Shown: positions 15,072 through 64,000 of the stretch, in pieces
Numbering within the stretch: position 1 is the stretch's first letter
Layout: each line of letters starts with the position of its first letter
Source of the DNA: Acidobacteriota bacterium
GTDB taxonomy: Bacteria > Acidobacteriota > Vicinamibacteria > Vicinamibacterales > JAKQTR01
Assembly: GCA_026393755.1 (NCBI GenBank)
Contig: JAPKZO010000032.1
Coordinates: forward strand, 62,001 to 126,000
Reading direction: 5' to 3'
Length of the DNA: 64,000 nucleotides
The notes under the pieces: generated by a model
The model's database searches: none
What the model was told of the DNA's origin: nothing
What the model saw: the letters and a program-made list of their open reading frames with translations, nothing else
Position numbers and translations under genes: made by a program

Positions 15072-15220
15072 GAGTGTTTGGCCAGTCCAGTGTCGTGCCT
15101 CAGGGCACAATCGATCATTTTACAGCCGTCCTGCAGAAAAGCCTAGTCTGGCGCGGTCTCGCGCGGTTTTGCTGGAGATTTCGCACATCGCGGAGGCGGG
15201 AAGAACGACTTGTTACAACC

Positions 15221-15355
15221 TCATTTTGCTGGCGCAGTGGTCGAGTCTTCGAAAACCCCGAGTTCGCGCCTGCGCACGCCAACTGTGTTGTCCACGCACA
15301 GCTTCGGACGAATGCCGACACTGCCGCTCACGAAGAACGTCTCCCCCTTGATCAC
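15221..15355 (-). CDS. Candidate 44-residue ORF beside the attC-like element
   Basis: GTG 15355 to TGA 15221 reads 44 codons (begins VIKGETFFVSGSVGIRP, ends STTAPAK). It starts four bases beyond the distal core of the attC-like element at 15359, which is where a cassette gene would start. The remaining bases from 15072 to 15374 hold no other ORF I can support; a minor hairpin GTGCC-TCAG-GGCAC lies near 15095-15108. There is no recognised family and no clear ribosome site, so it may be a relic. Confidence 0.3.
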   Translation of the reverse strand: MIKGETFFVSGSVGIRPKLCVDNTVGVRRRELGVFEDSTTAPAK

Positions 15356-15358
15356 ATC

Positions 15359-15447
15359 GGCTGACCACCGGCGCTCAGCCGCGCACGCGCCCCACTGTCT
15401 TGGAAGTGGAGCGCTTCGCGCGCGTCTGCTGCATGCGTGTGTTCGCC
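15359..15447 (-). repeat. attC-like imperfect palindrome C
   Basis: 89 bp. On the plus strand the outer cores are GGCTGAC (15359-15365) and GTTCGCC (15441-15447). The left arm GGCTGACCACCGGCGCTCA faces the right arm CGTCTGCTGCATGCGTGTG with extra unpaired bases, the layout of integron attC sites. Its first 11 bases equal those of element B, and the CGTCnGnTnnAT block is shared with A and B. The antitoxin gene ends inside it at 15375. Core bases deviate from GTTRRRY, so recombination competence is uncertain. Confidence 0.5.
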
Positions 15448-15689
15448 GGCGCTTGTGGCAGCAACCGTCCCGTCGATCGTCGGCTTGCCCGAACGAGATC
15501 GACGAGTTCCGGGGCGGTCAGACTGGACTCAACTCCGGGCACGTCGAGCGGCGACCCTCCGCGAAGAGCCGGCTGCACGAGGAACAGTTCACCGTCGCGA
15601 CGCCGGATTTGCGCCTGCCCTTCGCGCTTGGCCTGCCGCAATACATCAGCAAACCGCTGGCGCGCCTCCGAGTAGGTGTACACCTTCAT
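15375..15689 (-). CDS. Phd/YefM-like antitoxin with C-terminus read into repeat C
   Basis: 104 residues from ATG 15689. The N-terminus (MKVYTYSEARQRFADVLRQA, then IRRRDGELFLVQP) is the DNA-binding fold of Phd/YefM antitoxins, which neutralise a partner toxin and repress the operon. Residues ~80-104 (NTRMQQTRAKR...) are encoded by the attC-like repeat and are unlikely to be ancestral. The start overlaps the toxin stop as ATGA (15686-15689), so toxin and antitoxin are translationally coupled with the toxin first. Confidence 0.75.
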   Translation of the reverse strand: MKVYTYSEARQRFADVLRQAKREGQAQIRRRDGELFLVQPALRGGSPLDVPGVESSLTAPELVDLVRASRRSTGRLLPQAPANTRMQQTRAKRSTSKTVGRVRG

Positions 15690-16099
15690 GTCGGTAACTC
15701 CATGACCGAGACGCCGATCGACCGCGCGGCCCGAGCCAGGGCCGCGTCGAGTGTGAGCAAGGGCGCCCCTTCCCTTCGGGCCGCTTCCAACATGTAGGCG
15801 TCGTAGGCGTAGACGCGAAGCGCGACTGCCAGCTCCAGCGCTTTGGCAACGTCGAGCTGTGCCAGGCGCACCGAAATCATGCGGTAACTTGCCCAAGCCG
15901 TCAGGACCATTTCCTCGGTAAGTCTGCGTTTCCGGACTCCGGCAATTAGGGCGTTCCCGACTTCCCACGGGAGCGACGGCGCCGAGATCAGAGAGCACCC
16001 GTCGGTCACGGCGATGAGCGCCGCCCGCGACGGTTCACTGAGTAACACGGCGAGAATGGCGGACGTGTCGATGGCGATGGTCACTGGGCGATCCTGCAT
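15686..16099 (-). CDS. PIN-domain toxin (VapC-like ribonuclease)
   Basis: 137 residues from ATG 16099. The PIN fold is shown by four acidic residues in standard spacing: D11 (AIDTSAILAV), E46 (LPWEVGNAL), D100 (YAYDAYML) and D118 (LLTLDAAL). Family members cleave tRNA or rRNA and are blocked by the cognate antitoxin. A TTG start lies nine bases upstream, but the ATG sits where transcription is predicted to begin, so the mRNA may be leaderless. It precedes its antitoxin, the reverse of the classic vapBC order. Confidence 0.8.
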   Translation of the reverse strand: MQDRPVTIAIDTSAILAVLLSEPSRAALIAVTDGCSLISAPSLPWEVGNALIAGVRKRRLTEEMVLTAWASYRMISVRLAQLDVAKALELAVALRVYAYDAYMLEAARREGAPLLTLDAALARAARSIGVSVMELPT

Positions 16100-16100
16100 T

Positions 16101-16116
16101 TTGTACAATTGTACAA
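16101..16116. promoter_or_regulatory. Palindromic operator of the toxin-antitoxin pair
   Basis: TTGTACAATTGTACAA is a perfect 16-bp palindrome that lies between the predicted -10 box and the toxin ATG, overlapping the -10. Phd- and VapB-type antitoxins bind such TGTACA-containing palindromes for autorepression. Binding by this particular antitoxin is inferred. Confidence 0.7.
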
Positions 16117-16136
16117 CTAGAACGGTTGCCGTTCAA
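16108..16136 (-). promoter_or_regulatory. Sigma-70-type promoter of the toxin-antitoxin operon
   Basis: On the minus strand, -35 TTGAAC (16131-16136), a 17-base spacer and -10 TACAAT (16108-16113). Both hexamers are close to TTGACA/TATAAT. The predicted start of transcription is at about 16100, immediately before the ATG at 16099, which predicts a leaderless message. The spacer contains a short palindrome, AACGGTTGCCGTT. Confidence 0.65.
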
Positions 16137-16153
16137 TGGTAGGCGTTCTGTCC

Positions 16154-16227
16154 GGCTGACCACCGCGCTTCACCCGCGACGCTTCACGATCGCACTAGGA
16201 ACCGTCGGTTGGATGCGCCTGTCAGGC
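16154..16227 (-). repeat. attC-like imperfect palindrome B
   Basis: 74 bp. Plus-strand outer cores are GGCTGAC (16154-16160) and GTCAGGC (16221-16227), complementary but for one base. The left arm GGCTGACCACCGCGCTTCA matches element C. The right arm ACCGTCGGTTGGATGCGCC carries the same CGTCnGnTnnAT block as A and C. It lies between the exported CnaB gene and the toxin gene, 64 bases after the former's stop, as a cassette boundary would. Confidence 0.5.
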
Positions 16228-16291
16228 TCCGTACCCACCTGGCTCCGACCGCCTGTTTGCGTCGTGAATAGCAACGACACTCCTGCCGGGT

Positions 16292-17086
16292 TCACCGTTC
16301 CCGGCCCATGGCTCGCAACGTCGAGAGAAAATCGGCGGTGGTCATGCTGGCTGTGCTCACGGGCGAGTGGAAACTGACGACTTGGTCTCCGGTGATCAAG
16401 AACGCGTAGTAGGGCCCGGCCAAACGCCACAGTTCCTGCTTGGACCCGACCAAGAAAACGATCATCTGTTGGCCGATTCGGTAAGGCGTGCGCTCGCTCA
16501 CCCAGTTCTCTTGCCTGAACACGAGTTGACGCCTGGCCTGCGTCTCTGCGCCGCTCTTGAGACTCTCGATGACGTCGGCCGTATGTAGAACGTCGTTGGT
16601 GGGACATTCTGACCGCACCGGGTTCGTTGCCACAATGCGGACATAGGCAACGATGGCTGCCTGTTTCCACGCCGCGCCGAGGCTGCCAGGCACGGGCCAG
16701 TCGACCTCCCAGAGAGGAGCCAGACAGAGCGCGAAGTCTAACGGACTCACCAATTGGCCATCGCGAAGCGCGATGCCCTCCCGCTTCGTGGTCACGAACC
16801 CCACCAGGGACGCTGTGATGGAGTAGGTCCCGGCGGGTAAGCCCGCGAGACGATAGCACCCGGACGAATCGGTGACGGCGCGCTGCTGTGTGCTCGAGCC
16901 GGAAGCGATAACTTCCGCGCCCGGAAACACCGCCCCGCTCTTGTCCGTGACGCATCCGCTGATGCTGCCCTGTCCATTGGCGGCGGCTGGCGCGAGAGCG
17001 AAAGCGAACACAAGCCACGCGACGTTCCACCCGTGCGAAAGAGGCGCTCGACGTTGGTGACGGGAGTGCATATCGACTGTCTCCAT
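16292..17086 (-). CDS. Exported protein with CnaB-like domain
   Basis: About 264 residues from ATG 17086 (ATG 17071 is equally possible). A signal peptide (NVAWLVFAFALAPAAANG) is followed by a carboxypeptidase-regulatory-like domain (GSISGCVTDKSGAVFPGAEV, then AGLPAGTYSITASLVGF). The C-terminal half contains AAIVAYVRIVATNP and YAFLITGDQVV segments I do not recognise; they recall TIMP/NTR-like surface domains only loosely. The open frame extends upstream into element A, but those codons (MEPTRW...) are repeat readthrough. Secreted or cell-surface role, unknown. Confidence 0.65.
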   Translation of the reverse strand: METVDMHSRHQRRAPLSHGWNVAWLVFAFALAPAAANGQGSISGCVTDKSGAVFPGAEVIASGSSTQQRAVTDSSGCYRLAGLPAGTYSITASLVGFVTTKREGIALRDGQLVSPLDFALCLAPLWEVDWPVPGSLGAAWKQAAIVAYVRIVATNPVRSECPTNDVLHTADVIESLKSGAETQARRQLVFRQENWVSERTPYRIGQQMIVFLVGSKQELWRLAGPYYAFLITGDQVVSFHSPVSTASMTTADFLSTLRAMGRER

Positions 17087-17122
17087 TGCGTCTGCGCGGT
17101 ACCGAGGTCTCAACGCCAGTAA

Positions 17123-17189
17123 GCCTAACGTCTCAAATGAACCGCGTGCGTTCACGAGCCAGCGCGTCGGCTCCATTTGGATGTTAGCC
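17123..17189 (-). repeat. attC-like site A with near-consensus cores
   Basis: 67 bp, the best of the three. On the minus strand it reads GGCTAAC ... GTTAGGC. The distal core GTTAGGC (17129-17123) fits the integron R' consensus GTTRRRY exactly, and the proximal core GGCTAAC differs by one base from its complement. Inner arms CCAAATGGAGCCGACGCG and CGCACGCGGTTCATTTGAG pair with extrahelical bases as in real attC sites. The TAA stop of the upstream ORF (17184) lies inside the proximal core, which is typical of gene cassettes. Confidence 0.62.
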
Positions 17190-17534
17190 AGCTCCTTGCG
17201 AGGTGACCGTTCCTACCTCTTCTTTCGGAACGCAAGCCTCGCCCTTGAACGTGATCCAGTCGAATGCGTCTCCTTGTCGCCCGTCACCGAGCACAACGTC
17301 CCGGACCTGAAAGTCAGTGATGACAAACGACAGCCGGCCTCGGCCGAGTTGGTCCATTCGCTTCAGGGTTTCCTCCGCCGACCGAAGGTCAATGGCGGCC
17401 CTGGCTGCATCGTAGTCCGCGCGCGTCACCACGAATCGAAGCGGACGCTCTTGACGTCCCGCCGTGGGACGACCCGGCGACCGCATCGGAGAACGTCCCG
17501 CACGACATGACCGACGACGTCTCGGTGTTCCCAT
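17184..17534 (-). CDS. Hypothetical protein ending in attC-like site A
   Basis: 116 codons. The first ~30 residues are arginine-rich and doubtful. From about residue 31 the sequence looks like a folded protein ([52 protein letters not shown]). The stop TAA overlaps the GGCTAAC core of element A. The 5' end runs into the larB leader, so this may be a truncated last cassette. Family unknown. Confidence 0.42.
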
Positions 17535-17680
17535 CGCAACTCGTCACCGTTGAGGCGTTGCAACGACCGGTTGAATCCACCCGGCATTCTTGCGCCGGAA
17601 ATGCGGCCATTATCGACATGGGGTCCGGAATCGGTGATCATAGCCCCCATGTGCTGTGGACTCAAACGCCGGGCCGCCCG

Positions 17681-26921: not shown

Positions 26922-27110
26922 CCTGGGCGGCGCCTGCTCCGGCTGCACGGCCTGACCGGCGCCCGGATTGATACGGCCGCGCTTGAGGACGTCGGTGATC
27001 ATGTGGTCTGGGTGACGCACGGCGCCACGGAGACCGGCGAGGCGGTGGCCGTTCATCTGGAGCCGCTGACAGGTAAACTGATTGCGTTCTACGTGGGAGG
27101 TGAGCGATGA
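26922..27110 (+). pseudogene. Open-frame fragment upstream of the RHS remnant
   Basis: 62 codons from just after a stop (26919-26921) to TGA 27108, with no usable start codon near its 5' end. It reads RLLRLHGLTGARIDTAALED then HVVWVTHGATETGEAVAVHL. The TGA overlaps the following ATG as ATGA. Identity unknown. The 75 bases from 26847 to 26921 hold nothing I recognise. Confidence 0.3.
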
Positions 27111-27484
27111 GCCGCGGAATGCGGACGTCGGGGATCGGCGCGGTCGTTCGTGCGGTCACCGCTGGCGCGGCGCGTAGCAGACGACGGGTGGCCTCCTCTC
27201 TCTCTCGCATGGGTGTCGCGGGCCTGCTGGTGCTGCTGCCGACGTCCGCGCTGGCGCAGTCGGGGCAGATCGTCGAGTACTTCCACCTCGACGCCCTGGG
27301 CTCGGTGCGCGTCGTCACCGATCAGACGGGGCAGGTAGTCGCGCGCCACGACTTTCTGCCGTTTGGGGAAGAATGGAATCCGCCGCCGAACGCGAAAGAC
27401 AAGAAACTCTTCACGGGCCATGAGCGCGACGCGGAGAGCGGCGAATGGGGAGGCGGAGGCGGTCAAGGCACCGAAGATGGTTAA
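27107..27484 (+). pseudogene. Truncated RHS-repeat core remnant with signal peptide
   Basis: 125 codons. A signal peptide (GVAGLLVLLPTSALAQ) is followed by EYFHLDALGSVRVVTDQTGQ, VARHDFLPFGEEW and KLFTGHERDAESG. This is the RHS repeat-associated core, which in full genes continues to an ARYY/GR-type block and a toxin tip. Here the core breaks off at ESG and turns into low-complexity glycine. In another frame (from 27420) the sequence continues to RY-stop at 27513, so a deletion with frameshift is likely. Full RHS proteins deliver C-terminal toxins. Confidence 0.7.
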
Positions 27485-27518
27485 GCAGGCGGCGGCGAAA
27501 GCGCAGAGGTATTGAGTT

Positions 27519-27953
27519 GTGACTGAGACGAACGAGAACATGTTCAGCCCGTTCTTGAGCGACGAACACACCCGCACTCTTCGCGAGGTAAGAATGTATG
27601 CCTCGGCGGAGTTGCCCGATTCCGTCGAAGCCCTCGATCTCTTTTTCGATCACTTGGTCGTCCGCGTCTCCGTGGAGTCACTCGACGACACCGTCTATTG
27701 CGTTAGGCTGTCACCGCCAATTGCGGCGCCGGGCGAGCATATGGAGACCCTGACCAGTGGATTCTGGCAACCACTGCTGGGGAAGGTACTGACAGCCACG
27801 TGGCGCATGACGAATGAACGCGGGTACAACGATGCCGTGGAACTTCAGCTGAGGGATTCGATCAACCAAGGCGGCTACGCCCTCGTCCGGATTGAAGCGG
27901 CCGCATCAGGACTCTGGATCGCGGAACTGGCTCCAACTAGGTCGGTCAGGTGA
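27519..27953 (+). CDS. Uncharacterised small protein, candidate RHS immunity protein
   Basis: 144 residues from GTG 27519 (ATG 27540 is possible). Acidic, soluble, no signal peptide. Features are LREVRMYASAELPDSVEALD, a central DDTVYCVRLSPPI strand pair and WRMTNERGYNDAVELQL; it may belong to a DUF6334-like group (from memory, weak). It starts four bases after the last stop of the broken RHS reading frame, where immunity genes normally sit. Confidence 0.55.
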   Translation: MTETNENMFSPFLSDEHTRTLREVRMYASAELPDSVEALDLFFDHLVVRVSVESLDDTVYCVRLSPPIAAPGEHMETLTSGFWQPLLGKVLTATWRMTNERGYNDAVELQLRDSINQGGYALVRIEAAASGLWIAELAPTRSVR

Positions 27954-28169
27954 AGCGATACCGCGGTGAGAAGTCACGGCCGCGCTGGCGGGCGCCTTGT
28001 GATTTCAGGTGATGTTGGATCGCGTGCCGGTGCGGGGAACGCCGAGGACCGCGTGGCGGCGCTGTGCGCCTTCGACTTCAGGTATCGACAATGTGACCAT
28101 TATGGCAGAGGGTTTCCCGTACGCCATTCCCGGGGGTGGAACCTGCCCCTGCTCGAAGTGAGGGCCAAC

Positions 28170-28574
28170 ATGGGCGTCTGGCTGTTAGCACCGGCTCTCG
28201 CCGTTGGAGCATTGATCATCTGGGCCTTCAGAGTCCATTCGCGAAGATCACTCGTGAAAGGGCGCGAGCCGAAGTCGCTGGCGGATCTGCAAGCGGAAGT
28301 GCCGGATCAGGTGTCGCCAGACGTGTTCCGAGAGGTTTGGACCACGATCGGAGAAGCATTCTCGATTGATGCTCGACTGATCAGGCCGAATGACACGCTG
28401 GCGGCCCTCACGAACATGGCCAGTTGGGACTTGGGAAACGGAGAGGATGCCCTGAGCGAGTGGTTCGAGAAGGAGGGTTGGGGAAGGCCGCCTGCGCCTG
28501 CGACGGTGCTCGACTTGGCGAGGTGGGTGCAGTCCTGCCGAGCGAGGACAGAACACTGCCACAGAGCCAAGTGA
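28170..28574 (+). CDS. Membrane-anchored protein with acyl-carrier-like (DUF1493-like) domain
   Basis: 134 residues from ATG 28170 (GTGAGGG upstream). One N-terminal helix (1-20) precedes a soluble domain, DVFREVWTTIGEAFSIDARLI, NDTLAAL and DALSEWFEKEGW, whose helix pattern recalls acyl carrier-like DUF1493 proteins. The phosphopantetheine serine motif DSL is not seen, so carrier function is doubtful. The 216 bases before it (27954-28169) hold no gene I can support. Confidence 0.5.
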   Translation: MGVWLLAPALAVGALIIWAFRVHSRRSLVKGREPKSLADLQAEVPDQVSPDVFREVWTTIGEAFSIDARLIRPNDTLAALTNMASWDLGNGEDALSEWFEKEGWGRPPAPATVLDLARWVQSCRARTEHCHRAK

Positions 28575-28585
28575 GCGGTGCCGGG

Positions 28586-28687
28586 CGTACTCACTCGCCT
28601 GAGGTTCGAGAACGCGCCATCCTCGTGGTGGAGGAGTCCACCTGGAAGCATACCTCCCACTGGACCGGCTTTCGAGTTGACCGTTGA
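28586..28687 (+). mobile_element. IS3-family OrfA remnant
   Basis: 33 codons to TGA 28685 read THSPEVRERAILVVEES, then HTSHWTGFRVDR. This matches the N-terminus of IS3-type OrfA transposases (SPEVRERAVRMV...E...SQW). Only the first helix survives; no OrfB, terminal inverted repeats or target duplication was found nearby. It marks a past insertion in the island. Confidence 0.6.
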
Positions 28688-28702
28688 TGTGGGAGACCGA
28701 AA

Positions 28703-29098
28703 ATGTGTCAGAGATTCCGGATGGTTCATTTCCTGTTGGTGATAGTCCTACTGCAGGGCTGTTCAATCTGGCCTGAGTTGCCTCCGCGTCCTCCAAACGT
28801 GCCGGTGGATGCGGTGCGGCTCGGGGGAGCCAAAGCGCAGTGGTGGGTCAAGTGCTCGTACAAGTCCGGTGCCAACGTCTGCCGCGTGTTCAATGGCGGT
28901 GGCGTCGTGTTGGAGGACGACAGTGTGTACCGGCCGTACGATGGAGGGCCACCGGTGCCCGAACAGGAACTTCGAATCGATCCGCACCAGTCGATGATAC
29001 AACGGTTGTACCTTGAGAACGGCCGCATCCTCCTTCTGGCCAGGGCGTTCGACTTCCACAAAGGAGCGATCGACGCGATGGGTCGCGCAAAGCGGTAA
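28703..29098 (+). CDS. Putative lipoprotein, unknown
   Basis: 131 residues from ATG 28703, with GGGAGA at proper distance. The N-terminal hydrophobic stretch ends in the lipobox LLQGC (Cys ~20). The mature part holds AKAQWWVKCSYKSGANVCRVFNG and YRPYDGGPPVPEQEL. No family is recognised. It immediately follows the OrfA remnant. Confidence 0.58.
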   Translation: MCQRFRMVHFLLVIVLLQGCSIWPELPPRPPNVPVDAVRLGGAKAQWWVKCSYKSGANVCRVFNGGGVVLEDDSVYRPYDGGPPVPEQELRIDPHQSMIQRLYLENGRILLLARAFDFHKGAIDAMGRAKR

Positions 29099-29294
29099 AT
29101 GGGCATTTCCGAAGAAGTTCCGCGACTCCGATGCGAGCGTGATCGACGTTGGATCATGAGATTCGTGTGGGATGTCTGGCGGCGCCTCTTCAGCCGAACA
29201 ATATTCCTGTACCGCCTTGGGGAGCGTCTGGCAGTGGGCACGTTGAGTCAAGCCTTCGTGCCTTTGCATGTTCCTGGACACGCGTGAGCTACGG

Positions 29295-29789
29295 ATGTCA
29301 TACCAAACAGTCTTTGACGTCACCGAGAGAGGGTACGAGTATCCGTTCCTTCCACTAGTCGCCCTCCTCTTCGTGGGTCTCGGGATCGCATGGTGGCGTC
29401 TACTGCATCGCTCACCAGCGTGGCCCCAAGGAGCCAAGAATCGCATTGTTCCCGGCGTGATGCTCTGGTTCGGGGCGTTCGTGATATCCGTGTTCTCCGC
29501 GACGGGATTCCTGCAGCACGAACGCTTGCGAAGCAGACTCCGGGCGGGTGACTACGTCCTCGTGGAAGGGCTGGTTGTGGACTTTCGTGCCGGTTCCCCG
29601 GAACAGCACGTGGCGGAGCAGTTCCGAGTGGACGGTCATTTCTACTCCTACTCCGACTACATCGTGACTCCAGGGTTCCATCGCACTCGTTCGCGGGGAG
29701 GACCCCTGAGAGAGGGACGGTGGGTCCGGATCGCCGACATCGATGGGGAGATTGCCCGTTTGGAGATTGCGACAGAAGCGACAAGGTGA
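29295..29789 (+). CDS. Two-helix membrane protein with C-terminal beta domain
   Basis: 164 residues from ATG 29295. Helices lie at ~20-36 and ~55-75. The C-terminal part, GDYVLVEGLVVDFRAG, FRVDGHFYSYSDYIVTPGF and GGPLREGRWVRIADIDGEI, is a beta-rich domain seen, from memory, in many small orphan proteins of toxin/immunity islands. The 196 bases before it (29099-29294) contain only short overlapping ORFs I do not trust. Confidence 0.6.
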   Translation: MSYQTVFDVTERGYEYPFLPLVALLFVGLGIAWWRLLHRSPAWPQGAKNRIVPGVMLWFGAFVISVFSATGFLQHERLRSRLRAGDYVLVEGLVVDFRAGSPEQHVAEQFRVDGHFYSYSDYIVTPGFHRTRSRGGPLREGRWVRIADIDGEIARLEIATEATR

Positions 29790-29895
29790 GCGCAGTCGGT
29801 CACAAGCGTTGTGGGCTTGCACCTGCGCGTGCCCTGTCTCCTTCGGCGCACCGCGCCGCCATGGCGGGTCTCCTGCTCAGCGTCCGTGAGGAAAC

Positions 29896-30168
29896 ATGCA
29901 GCTACACTGGCTCTCTTGGATCGGGATTGCACTGATATTCGCGGCCAACGGTCTCTACTACGTCATGGCTCATGATGCGAACAAAGCGAGTCCACCTGAC
30001 AGACGGTTGCCGTTTTGGGGAGGCCGCTCTCTGTTCTCGGTCCAGGTCAGGCATGCGGAGCTGTTCCCAGCCAGCCGAGCGCGCCTCGTGATGTGGCTTC
30101 TCGCTGGATCCGGTTTCGTCTGCTTCCTCCTCGGCGTTCTGCGGAGATTGCCGCCGTACGGGCACTAG
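29896..30168 (+). CDS. Small two-helix membrane protein, unknown
   Basis: 90 residues from ATG 29896, after GAGGAAAC. Helices are at ~4-24 and ~65-83, separated by a basic/aromatic loop (RRLPFWGGRSLFSVQVRH). It is the last gene of the island; 24 bases separate it from the convergent pgeF stop. Confidence 0.55.
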   Translation: MQLHWLSWIGIALIFAANGLYYVMAHDANKASPPDRRLPFWGGRSLFSVQVRHAELFPASRARLVMWLLAGSGFVCFLLGVLRRLPPYGH

Positions 30169-62782: not shown

Positions 62783-64000
62783 TGACGAAAGGGCCGATCT
62801 TGGATCACGATGAGGCGGTCTTGCTGGTGCGCTCCGCGCGGGGGGCGCACCGCGTGGCGCTCACGGAGTGGCTTGGCGCCGAACTCGCGGAACAGGCGGA
62901 GATCGACGCCAATCGCTGGATCAAGGCACTCCGGCATGCCCGGGTCGGCGGCCAGACGCTGCGCGATCGCTTCACCCACCGCGGGGATTCGCTCTGGTGG
63001 TTTGGGGAGCTCTACTTCCACAAGACACGGGTCATCAACACGATCTTCCGGACCCTCTATGCTCTCGAGGCCCTGGTGGCGGCCGAGCAGCCGCAGCGGT
63101 TGAGTGTCGTGCGAGGCAGTCCCGAAGTCCGATTCCTTGCCGCGCGAGTCGCCAGGCGCGCCGGTGTTGAGTGGGCAGGCGGCGGACAGTCATGGCCGGT
63201 TGGGCTGGCGCCACGCCTCGATGTCGTCGTTCGCGCGCACGCGTTCGTCGCCGGTGCCGGCATCGCCCGATGGCGAACTGCTCGCCGGCAGGTGTCGGCA
63301 CGAGCGACGGTAGCCGGATTCGTGCACGCGGCCTTCTGGCGCGGAGACGGGGAGCAGTACATCGGGCCGATTCTGCGCCGTCTCAGCACGTCAGGCGCGA
63401 CGGCCTCGCTGGCGCTGGTTGGCGTGGGCCCGGGCACAACGTACCGGGCTCGCTCGTGGCGCAACCGGGTCCGGAGCCTGGCGGGACTCGGCCTCGAGTC
63501 GGCATCGTTCACTCCGATCGACGCGTTTGCCTCGGCGCGAGATCTGGCGCCGTCTCGAGAGATCTGGCGGCAGCGGGCTGGCATCCTCCGCGAGATGCTG
63601 AACAGTGCCGACCTTCGCAGTGCGGCGATGATTGGCGGCTGCGATACCTGGCCGCTGTTGACGCCGGTCCTGGCTGGCGTCGCGTATCTTCAGTTTCCGT
63701 GGTCTGCGCACGTGATGGACCAGTTGGGGGCGTCGCTCGACGCGCTGAAACCGGGCGTCGCGCTCACGTACGCCGAAGCTGGCGGATGGGGCCGCGCCCT
63801 CGTCCTCGAGGCGCGCCGACGCGGCATTCCGACCGTCGGCCTGCAGCACGGGTTCATCTACCGGCACTGGCTCAACTACCTGCACGAGCCGGACGAAATG
63901 GCGCCGTCGGTGTGCAATCCCGCGGACCGGGGTTTCCCGCACCCAACACTGACGCTGCTCTACGACACGTTTGCCGCCGAGCACCTCCAGACGGCGGGGC
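62782..64000 (+). CDS. Probable polysaccharide biosynthesis protein, partial (runs off right edge)
   Basis: ATG 62782 gives at least 406 codons open to the window end. A GT-B-like C-terminal domain is suggested by GIPTVGLQHGFIYRHWLNYL, a motif shared with capsule and Kdo-type transferases, and by AEAGGWGRALVLEARRRG just before it. The N-terminal half (RGAHRVALTEWLGAEL) is not recognised. It is coupled to the GT9 gene. Confidence 0.62.
   Translation, partial: MTKGPILDHDEAVLLVRSARGAHRVALTEWLGAELAEQAEIDANRWIKALRHARVGGQTLRDRFTHRGDSLWWFGELYFHKTRVINTIFRTLYALEALVAAEQPQRLSVVRGSPEVRFLAARVARRAGVEWAGGGQSWPVGLAPRLDVVVRAHAFVAGAGIARWRTARRQVSARATVAGFVHAAFWRGDGEQYIGPILRRLSTSGATASLALVGVGPGTTYRARSWRNRVRSLAGLGLESASFTPIDAFASARDLAPSREIWRQRAGILREMLNSADLRSAAMIGGCDTWPLLTPVLAGVAYLQFPWSAHVMDQLGASLDALKPGVALTYAEAGGWGRALVLEARRRGIPTVGLQHGFIYRHWLNYLHEPDEMAPSVCNPADRGFPHPTLTLLYDTFAAEHLQTAG

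Follow-up and report, generated by a model that had tools for sequence, protein, structure and literature searches.

At positions 17123-17189 of the minus strand of the window (the whole stretch of 64,000 nucleotides analysed here, on contig C32), a gene ends in a short sequence with integron-like recombination cores. The question raised by this locus is whether that sequence is a genuine attC site and, if so, what kind of element it belongs to. We are highly confident that it is a genuine attC, and the best preserved of three in a three-cassette CALIN (cluster of attC sites lacking integron-integrase; IntegronFinder, PMC9024848) placed between a glycosyltransferase gene (GT2) and larB. The initial annotation had already read the sequence as an attC; a covariance model, the genomic context and an empty-site comparison all agreed with that reading, but the three-attC array and an integrase elsewhere in the genome had been missed.

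Cores, arms and predicted fold of attC site 1

attC site 1 is 67 nt long and presented the layout R''/L''/L'/R', with its two cores forming an inverted R'/R'' pair. As the initial annotation had described, the distal core R' (GTTAGGC, minus strand 17129-17123) matched GTTRRRY exactly, the proximal core R'' (GGCTAAC, 17189-17183) was one position off RYYYAAC, and the upstream ORF (17534-17184, minus strand) ended within this core, its TAA codon (17186-17184) lying inside GGCTAAC. The inner arms, L'' with an extra G and A and then L' (CAAATG[G]AGCCG[A]CG / CGCGGTTCATTTG), also paired as proposed and left two bases unpaired; the arms covaried, and the extrahelical bases were found on the R''-L'' arm. 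The recombining (bottom) strand is here the plus strand of the window, where the extra bases read C and T. The core motif alone was no evidence for an attC, since GTTRRRY was no commoner in the window than in shuffled sequence (45 occurrences vs. 57 expected).

Sedentary chromosomal integrons of the Acidobacteria type have attC sites (59-base elements) with this layout and length, and an attC model for Acidobacteria was made by Ghaly et al. 2021 (PMC8352920); further features in common were a bottom-strand G just after the AAC of R' and a pair of extrahelical bases that lie seven positions apart. The bottom strand folded better relative to shuffles (z = -2.9) than the top strand (z = -1.7). 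Of the hairpin that had been anticipated for it, the T bulge and extra bases were present, but the central spacer, expected to be unpaired, was mostly paired in the lowest-energy predicted fold. The ideal open-spacer fold, whose L stem contains one A.C mismatch, was less stable (-4.0 vs. -14.4 kcal/mol). The R and L boxes of attC site 1 are spaced by 3 and 4 nt, and much of this spacer is paired in the predicted fold, unlike in known attC sites; VCR spacers are 5 nt long, 3 of them unpaired.

Related sites in the genome and in the order

BLAST of attC site 1 against its own 4.43 Mb genome retrieved copies on contigs C16, C17 and C39 that have the GGCTAAC..CNAATGGAGCCGACG arm in common with it. 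A first covariance model (R1) was built from the structural alignment of six sites, attC site 1 included, with 22 pairs, 90% paired, 7 of which had changed on both sides. R1 gave 11 sites in the same genome at E < 0.011, scored attC site 1, a member of its training set, at 69.1 bits, and was run on 60 genomes of the order. It matched 34 of them, the sites often forming arrays on one strand, whilst 26 genomes had no match. A second model (R2) was made without attC site 1, using 53 attC sites that all came from other genomes, although these training sites had been gathered with R1, whose training set included it. In the R2 alignment 93.5% of the positions to be paired were paired and 14 pairs had changed on both sides, vs. 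9.5 in shuffles.

R2 scored attC site 1 at 61.9 bits (E 8.8e-14) and found two further sites in the window (33.0 and 26.4 bits), all three on the minus strand and each downstream of a gene. In the whole genome it recovered 18 sites at E < 0.01 on seven contigs, plus weaker ones; several copies were near contig ends, as expected when repeats break assembly. Outside this genome, R2 placed attC arrays next to the integron integrases of named Acidobacteriota MAGs, of Xanthomonas, Frateuria, Stenotrophomonas and Rehaibacterium, and of Chloroflexi. This indicated that the model recognises attC sites in general.

The three-cassette cluster at the GT2-larB junction

Read along the minus strand, the cluster comprised ORF1 (17534-17184), attC site 1, a gene for a carboxypeptidase-regulatory-like domain protein (16292-17071; Pfam PF13620, E 3.4e-21; alternative in-frame start at 17086), attC site 2 (16154-16227; R2 33.0 bits, E 3.2e-6; R1 18.8 bits), a PIN/Phd-type toxin-antitoxin-like pair and attC site 3 (15359-15447; R2 26.4 bits, E 1.7e-4). 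The R' core of attC site 2 is decayed (GTCAGCC), as are both R'' and R' of attC site 3 compared with the copy to which it was aligned in the sister genome G001 (G001:C41:851-939). The best homologues of the carboxypeptidase-regulatory-like gene had no attC within 1.5 kb. The three same-strand attCs span 15359-17189, and no integrase is present in the cluster, the only IntI of the genome above the cut-off being on contig C36; it is therefore not a complete integron with intI, attI and array together. The cluster is a further example of a known element type, the CALIN: it looks degraded, and it has cassette genes and two or more attCs with no integrase close by. It differs in that its core-gene setting could be shown through empty relatives and that an integrase exists elsewhere in the genome. 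attC sites 2 (16150-16165) and 3 (15355-15370) had 12 identical bases around R' (GGTGGTCAGCCG), an identity possibly due to gene conversion or common origin. R2 found no attC at 27107-30168 of the window, where small plus-strand ORFs follow one another in DNA of lower GC content, the first of them an Rhs-repeat-like fragment.

BLASTN of the flanks and junction sequences indicated that the stretch from about 15200 to 17583, limits set by the break of homology with G001, is absent from three genomes of the same family (G002, G003 and G004), where the flanking GT2 and larB genes lie about 130-180 bp apart without insert. A conserved gene crossing attC site 1 in relatives had been named as an argument against the site; none does, because the whole stretch is missing from them. 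At the same junction G001, a sister species of the same genus, carried an unrelated insert of 5.7 kb (G001:C3, L080 6470-12124) with a kinase, a response regulator and a PD40 protein. A tRNA-Leu considered within this insert was found neither by ARAGORN nor by Rfam. The GT2-larB junction is possibly an insertion hotspot.

Cassette 3 holds a toxin-like gene with a PIN domain (15686-16108, minus strand; PF01850, E 1.7e-8) and an antitoxin-like gene resembling Phd/YefM (15442-15692, approximate limits, minus strand). Toxin-antitoxin cassettes are common in chromosomal integrons, and this pair resembled them in forming one cassette, unlike them in that its antitoxin matched Phd/YefM families only below the curated cut-offs (PF02604, E 4.7e-5; TIGR01552, E 0.002). 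The toxin gave no match in plasmids and has an orthologue in a cassette of G001. There the PIN/Phd unit (G001:C41:138-923; 86.6% DNA identity) sits between attC sites at 61-144 and 851-939 (68 and 58 bits), so that the pair is mobile as a cassette-sized unit bounded elsewhere by attC cores. Homology started at the G of R' (window 16160, GTCAGCC; GTTAGCC in G001) and stopped inside the unit's own attC. As judged from the alignment, these limits are those of the unit that integron recombination would give, with the attC copies in the window having drifted from the consensus cores. Taken together, the empty-site comparison and the toxin-antitoxin cassette in common with G001 show that in uncultured Acidobacteriota integron cassettes come to lie among housekeeping genes, away from the integrase, where they decay.

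The outermost cassette was less complete. Its ORF (17184-17534, minus strand; 116 aa), with the stop codon inside R'' of attC site 1, was homologous only over its C-terminal ~77 aa to ~190-aa proteins of G003 and G056 (tblastn) and lacked the N-terminal ~108 aa of these homologues; the missing part was not found upstream. These weak homologues emerged only through the whole-genome search, peptide patterns having given no relatives in genome_contigs or viral_contigs. In G003 the homologue starts directly after a same-strand attC. Upstream of ORF1, at the outer junction, there was no crossover core (GTT), and cassette 1 does not form a unit running from a preceding R' to its own attC. By this protein comparison, ORF1 is the 5'-truncated remnant of a ~190-aa protein. 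Given this N-terminal loss, the outer end of the array was probably severed by something other than clean cassette exchange. Since the outermost cassette is truncated and R' has drifted in both attC site 2 and attC site 3, the cluster is probably of old age and for the most part immobile.

Three other explanations were weighed against a CALIN. The one that fared best, and which we nevertheless regard as unlikely, is that a single IntI-mediated insertion placed one isolated attC or one stray cassette (SALIN-like) at a non-classical genomic site (attG): such insertions are mentioned in the literature (PMC12901181), the cluster is set among core genes and only attC site 1 has an intact R' core, but the two additional same-strand attCs with genes in between (E 3e-6 and 2e-4) rule out a lone site, and the truncated ORF1 and the outer junction devoid of GTT do not fit it either. 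A hairpin repeat of the REP/MITE kind, with no relation to integrons and dispersed in the genome, would account for about 20 copies over several contigs; it is very improbable, considering that the loop regions of the copies vary while cores and arms are kept, that copies occur in same-strand arrays, one of them beside IntI, that R2 also finds classical Xanthomonadaceae arrays and that homology of the G001 unit begins at the crossover core. Equally improbable is a palindrome arisen by chance, or a transcription terminator, in the gap between two genes, since, common as core motifs and intergenic hairpins are, chance was ruled out by the score of the independent model R2 (E 8.8e-14), and the extra-base geometry common to dozens of sites and the cassette in common with G001 contradict it.

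The integron integrase and the extrahelical cytosine

A complete IntI was present on contig C36 (101592-102536; 426 bits vs. a cut-off of 265 bits), and an attC precedes the start of this gene by ~1.5 kb. The integrase could be aligned with VchIntIA (2A3V) along almost the entire sequence, and its nearest named relatives were from Acidobacteriota (63-68% identical), which points to a host in this phylum. On G000:C7, an attC (63880-63950, 39 bits) has an IntI-like tyrosine recombinase (65427-66233) as a neighbour at a distance of about 1.5 kb; the recombinase scored under the IntI cut-off, and its matched pieces were separated by a gap.

attC site 1 forms the 3' end of a gene cassette of integron type that is read along the minus strand. 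In the proposed mechanism, its bottom strand would fold, presumably also in the cell, and be bound by IntI, which would cut the R' core at G^TTAGGC; cleavage has been placed at R' of the folded bottom strand (PMC2727003). The cassette could then be excised, or joined to attI or to another attC, and the IntI of contig C36 could act in trans on the cluster. Recombination, like the route of the cassettes to the GT2-larB place, is a step that we infer.

attC site 1 departs from most known attC sites at one extrahelical position, where G20''/G16 is replaced by C. The same substitution (top-strand G, bottom-strand C; A3 column 16) occurred in 52 of 53 sites of the order, whereas the extrahelical base was G (top-strand C) in the aadA1 site, found exactly in plasmids, and in the Xanthomonadaceae and Chloroflexi sites read. 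In VchIntIA, H240 and P232 have been described as holding the extrahelical T12''. Many Acidobacteriota IntI, though not all, have F or Y at the H240 position, the IntI of this genome included. F or Y there, often together with a non-proline at P232, was seen in this IntI (L001), in G001, G006, G008 and G056, and in others. A strict coupling of F240 to extrahelical C was discarded, as G019 keeps H240. That the order-wide C is a lineage rule, with integrases perhaps adapted to read such sites, is a tentative and rather doubtful proposal, in which the adaptation of the integrase is conjecture. The first extrahelical C is known to be tolerated, C16 in VCR having cut integration only 2.7-fold (PMC2727003), and C at this position raised excision by several integrases, blaVIM-2 being the sole natural example known to those authors (PMC3053210). 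The order-wide extrahelical C is a natural test of these earlier mutant results (PMC2727003, PMC3053210).
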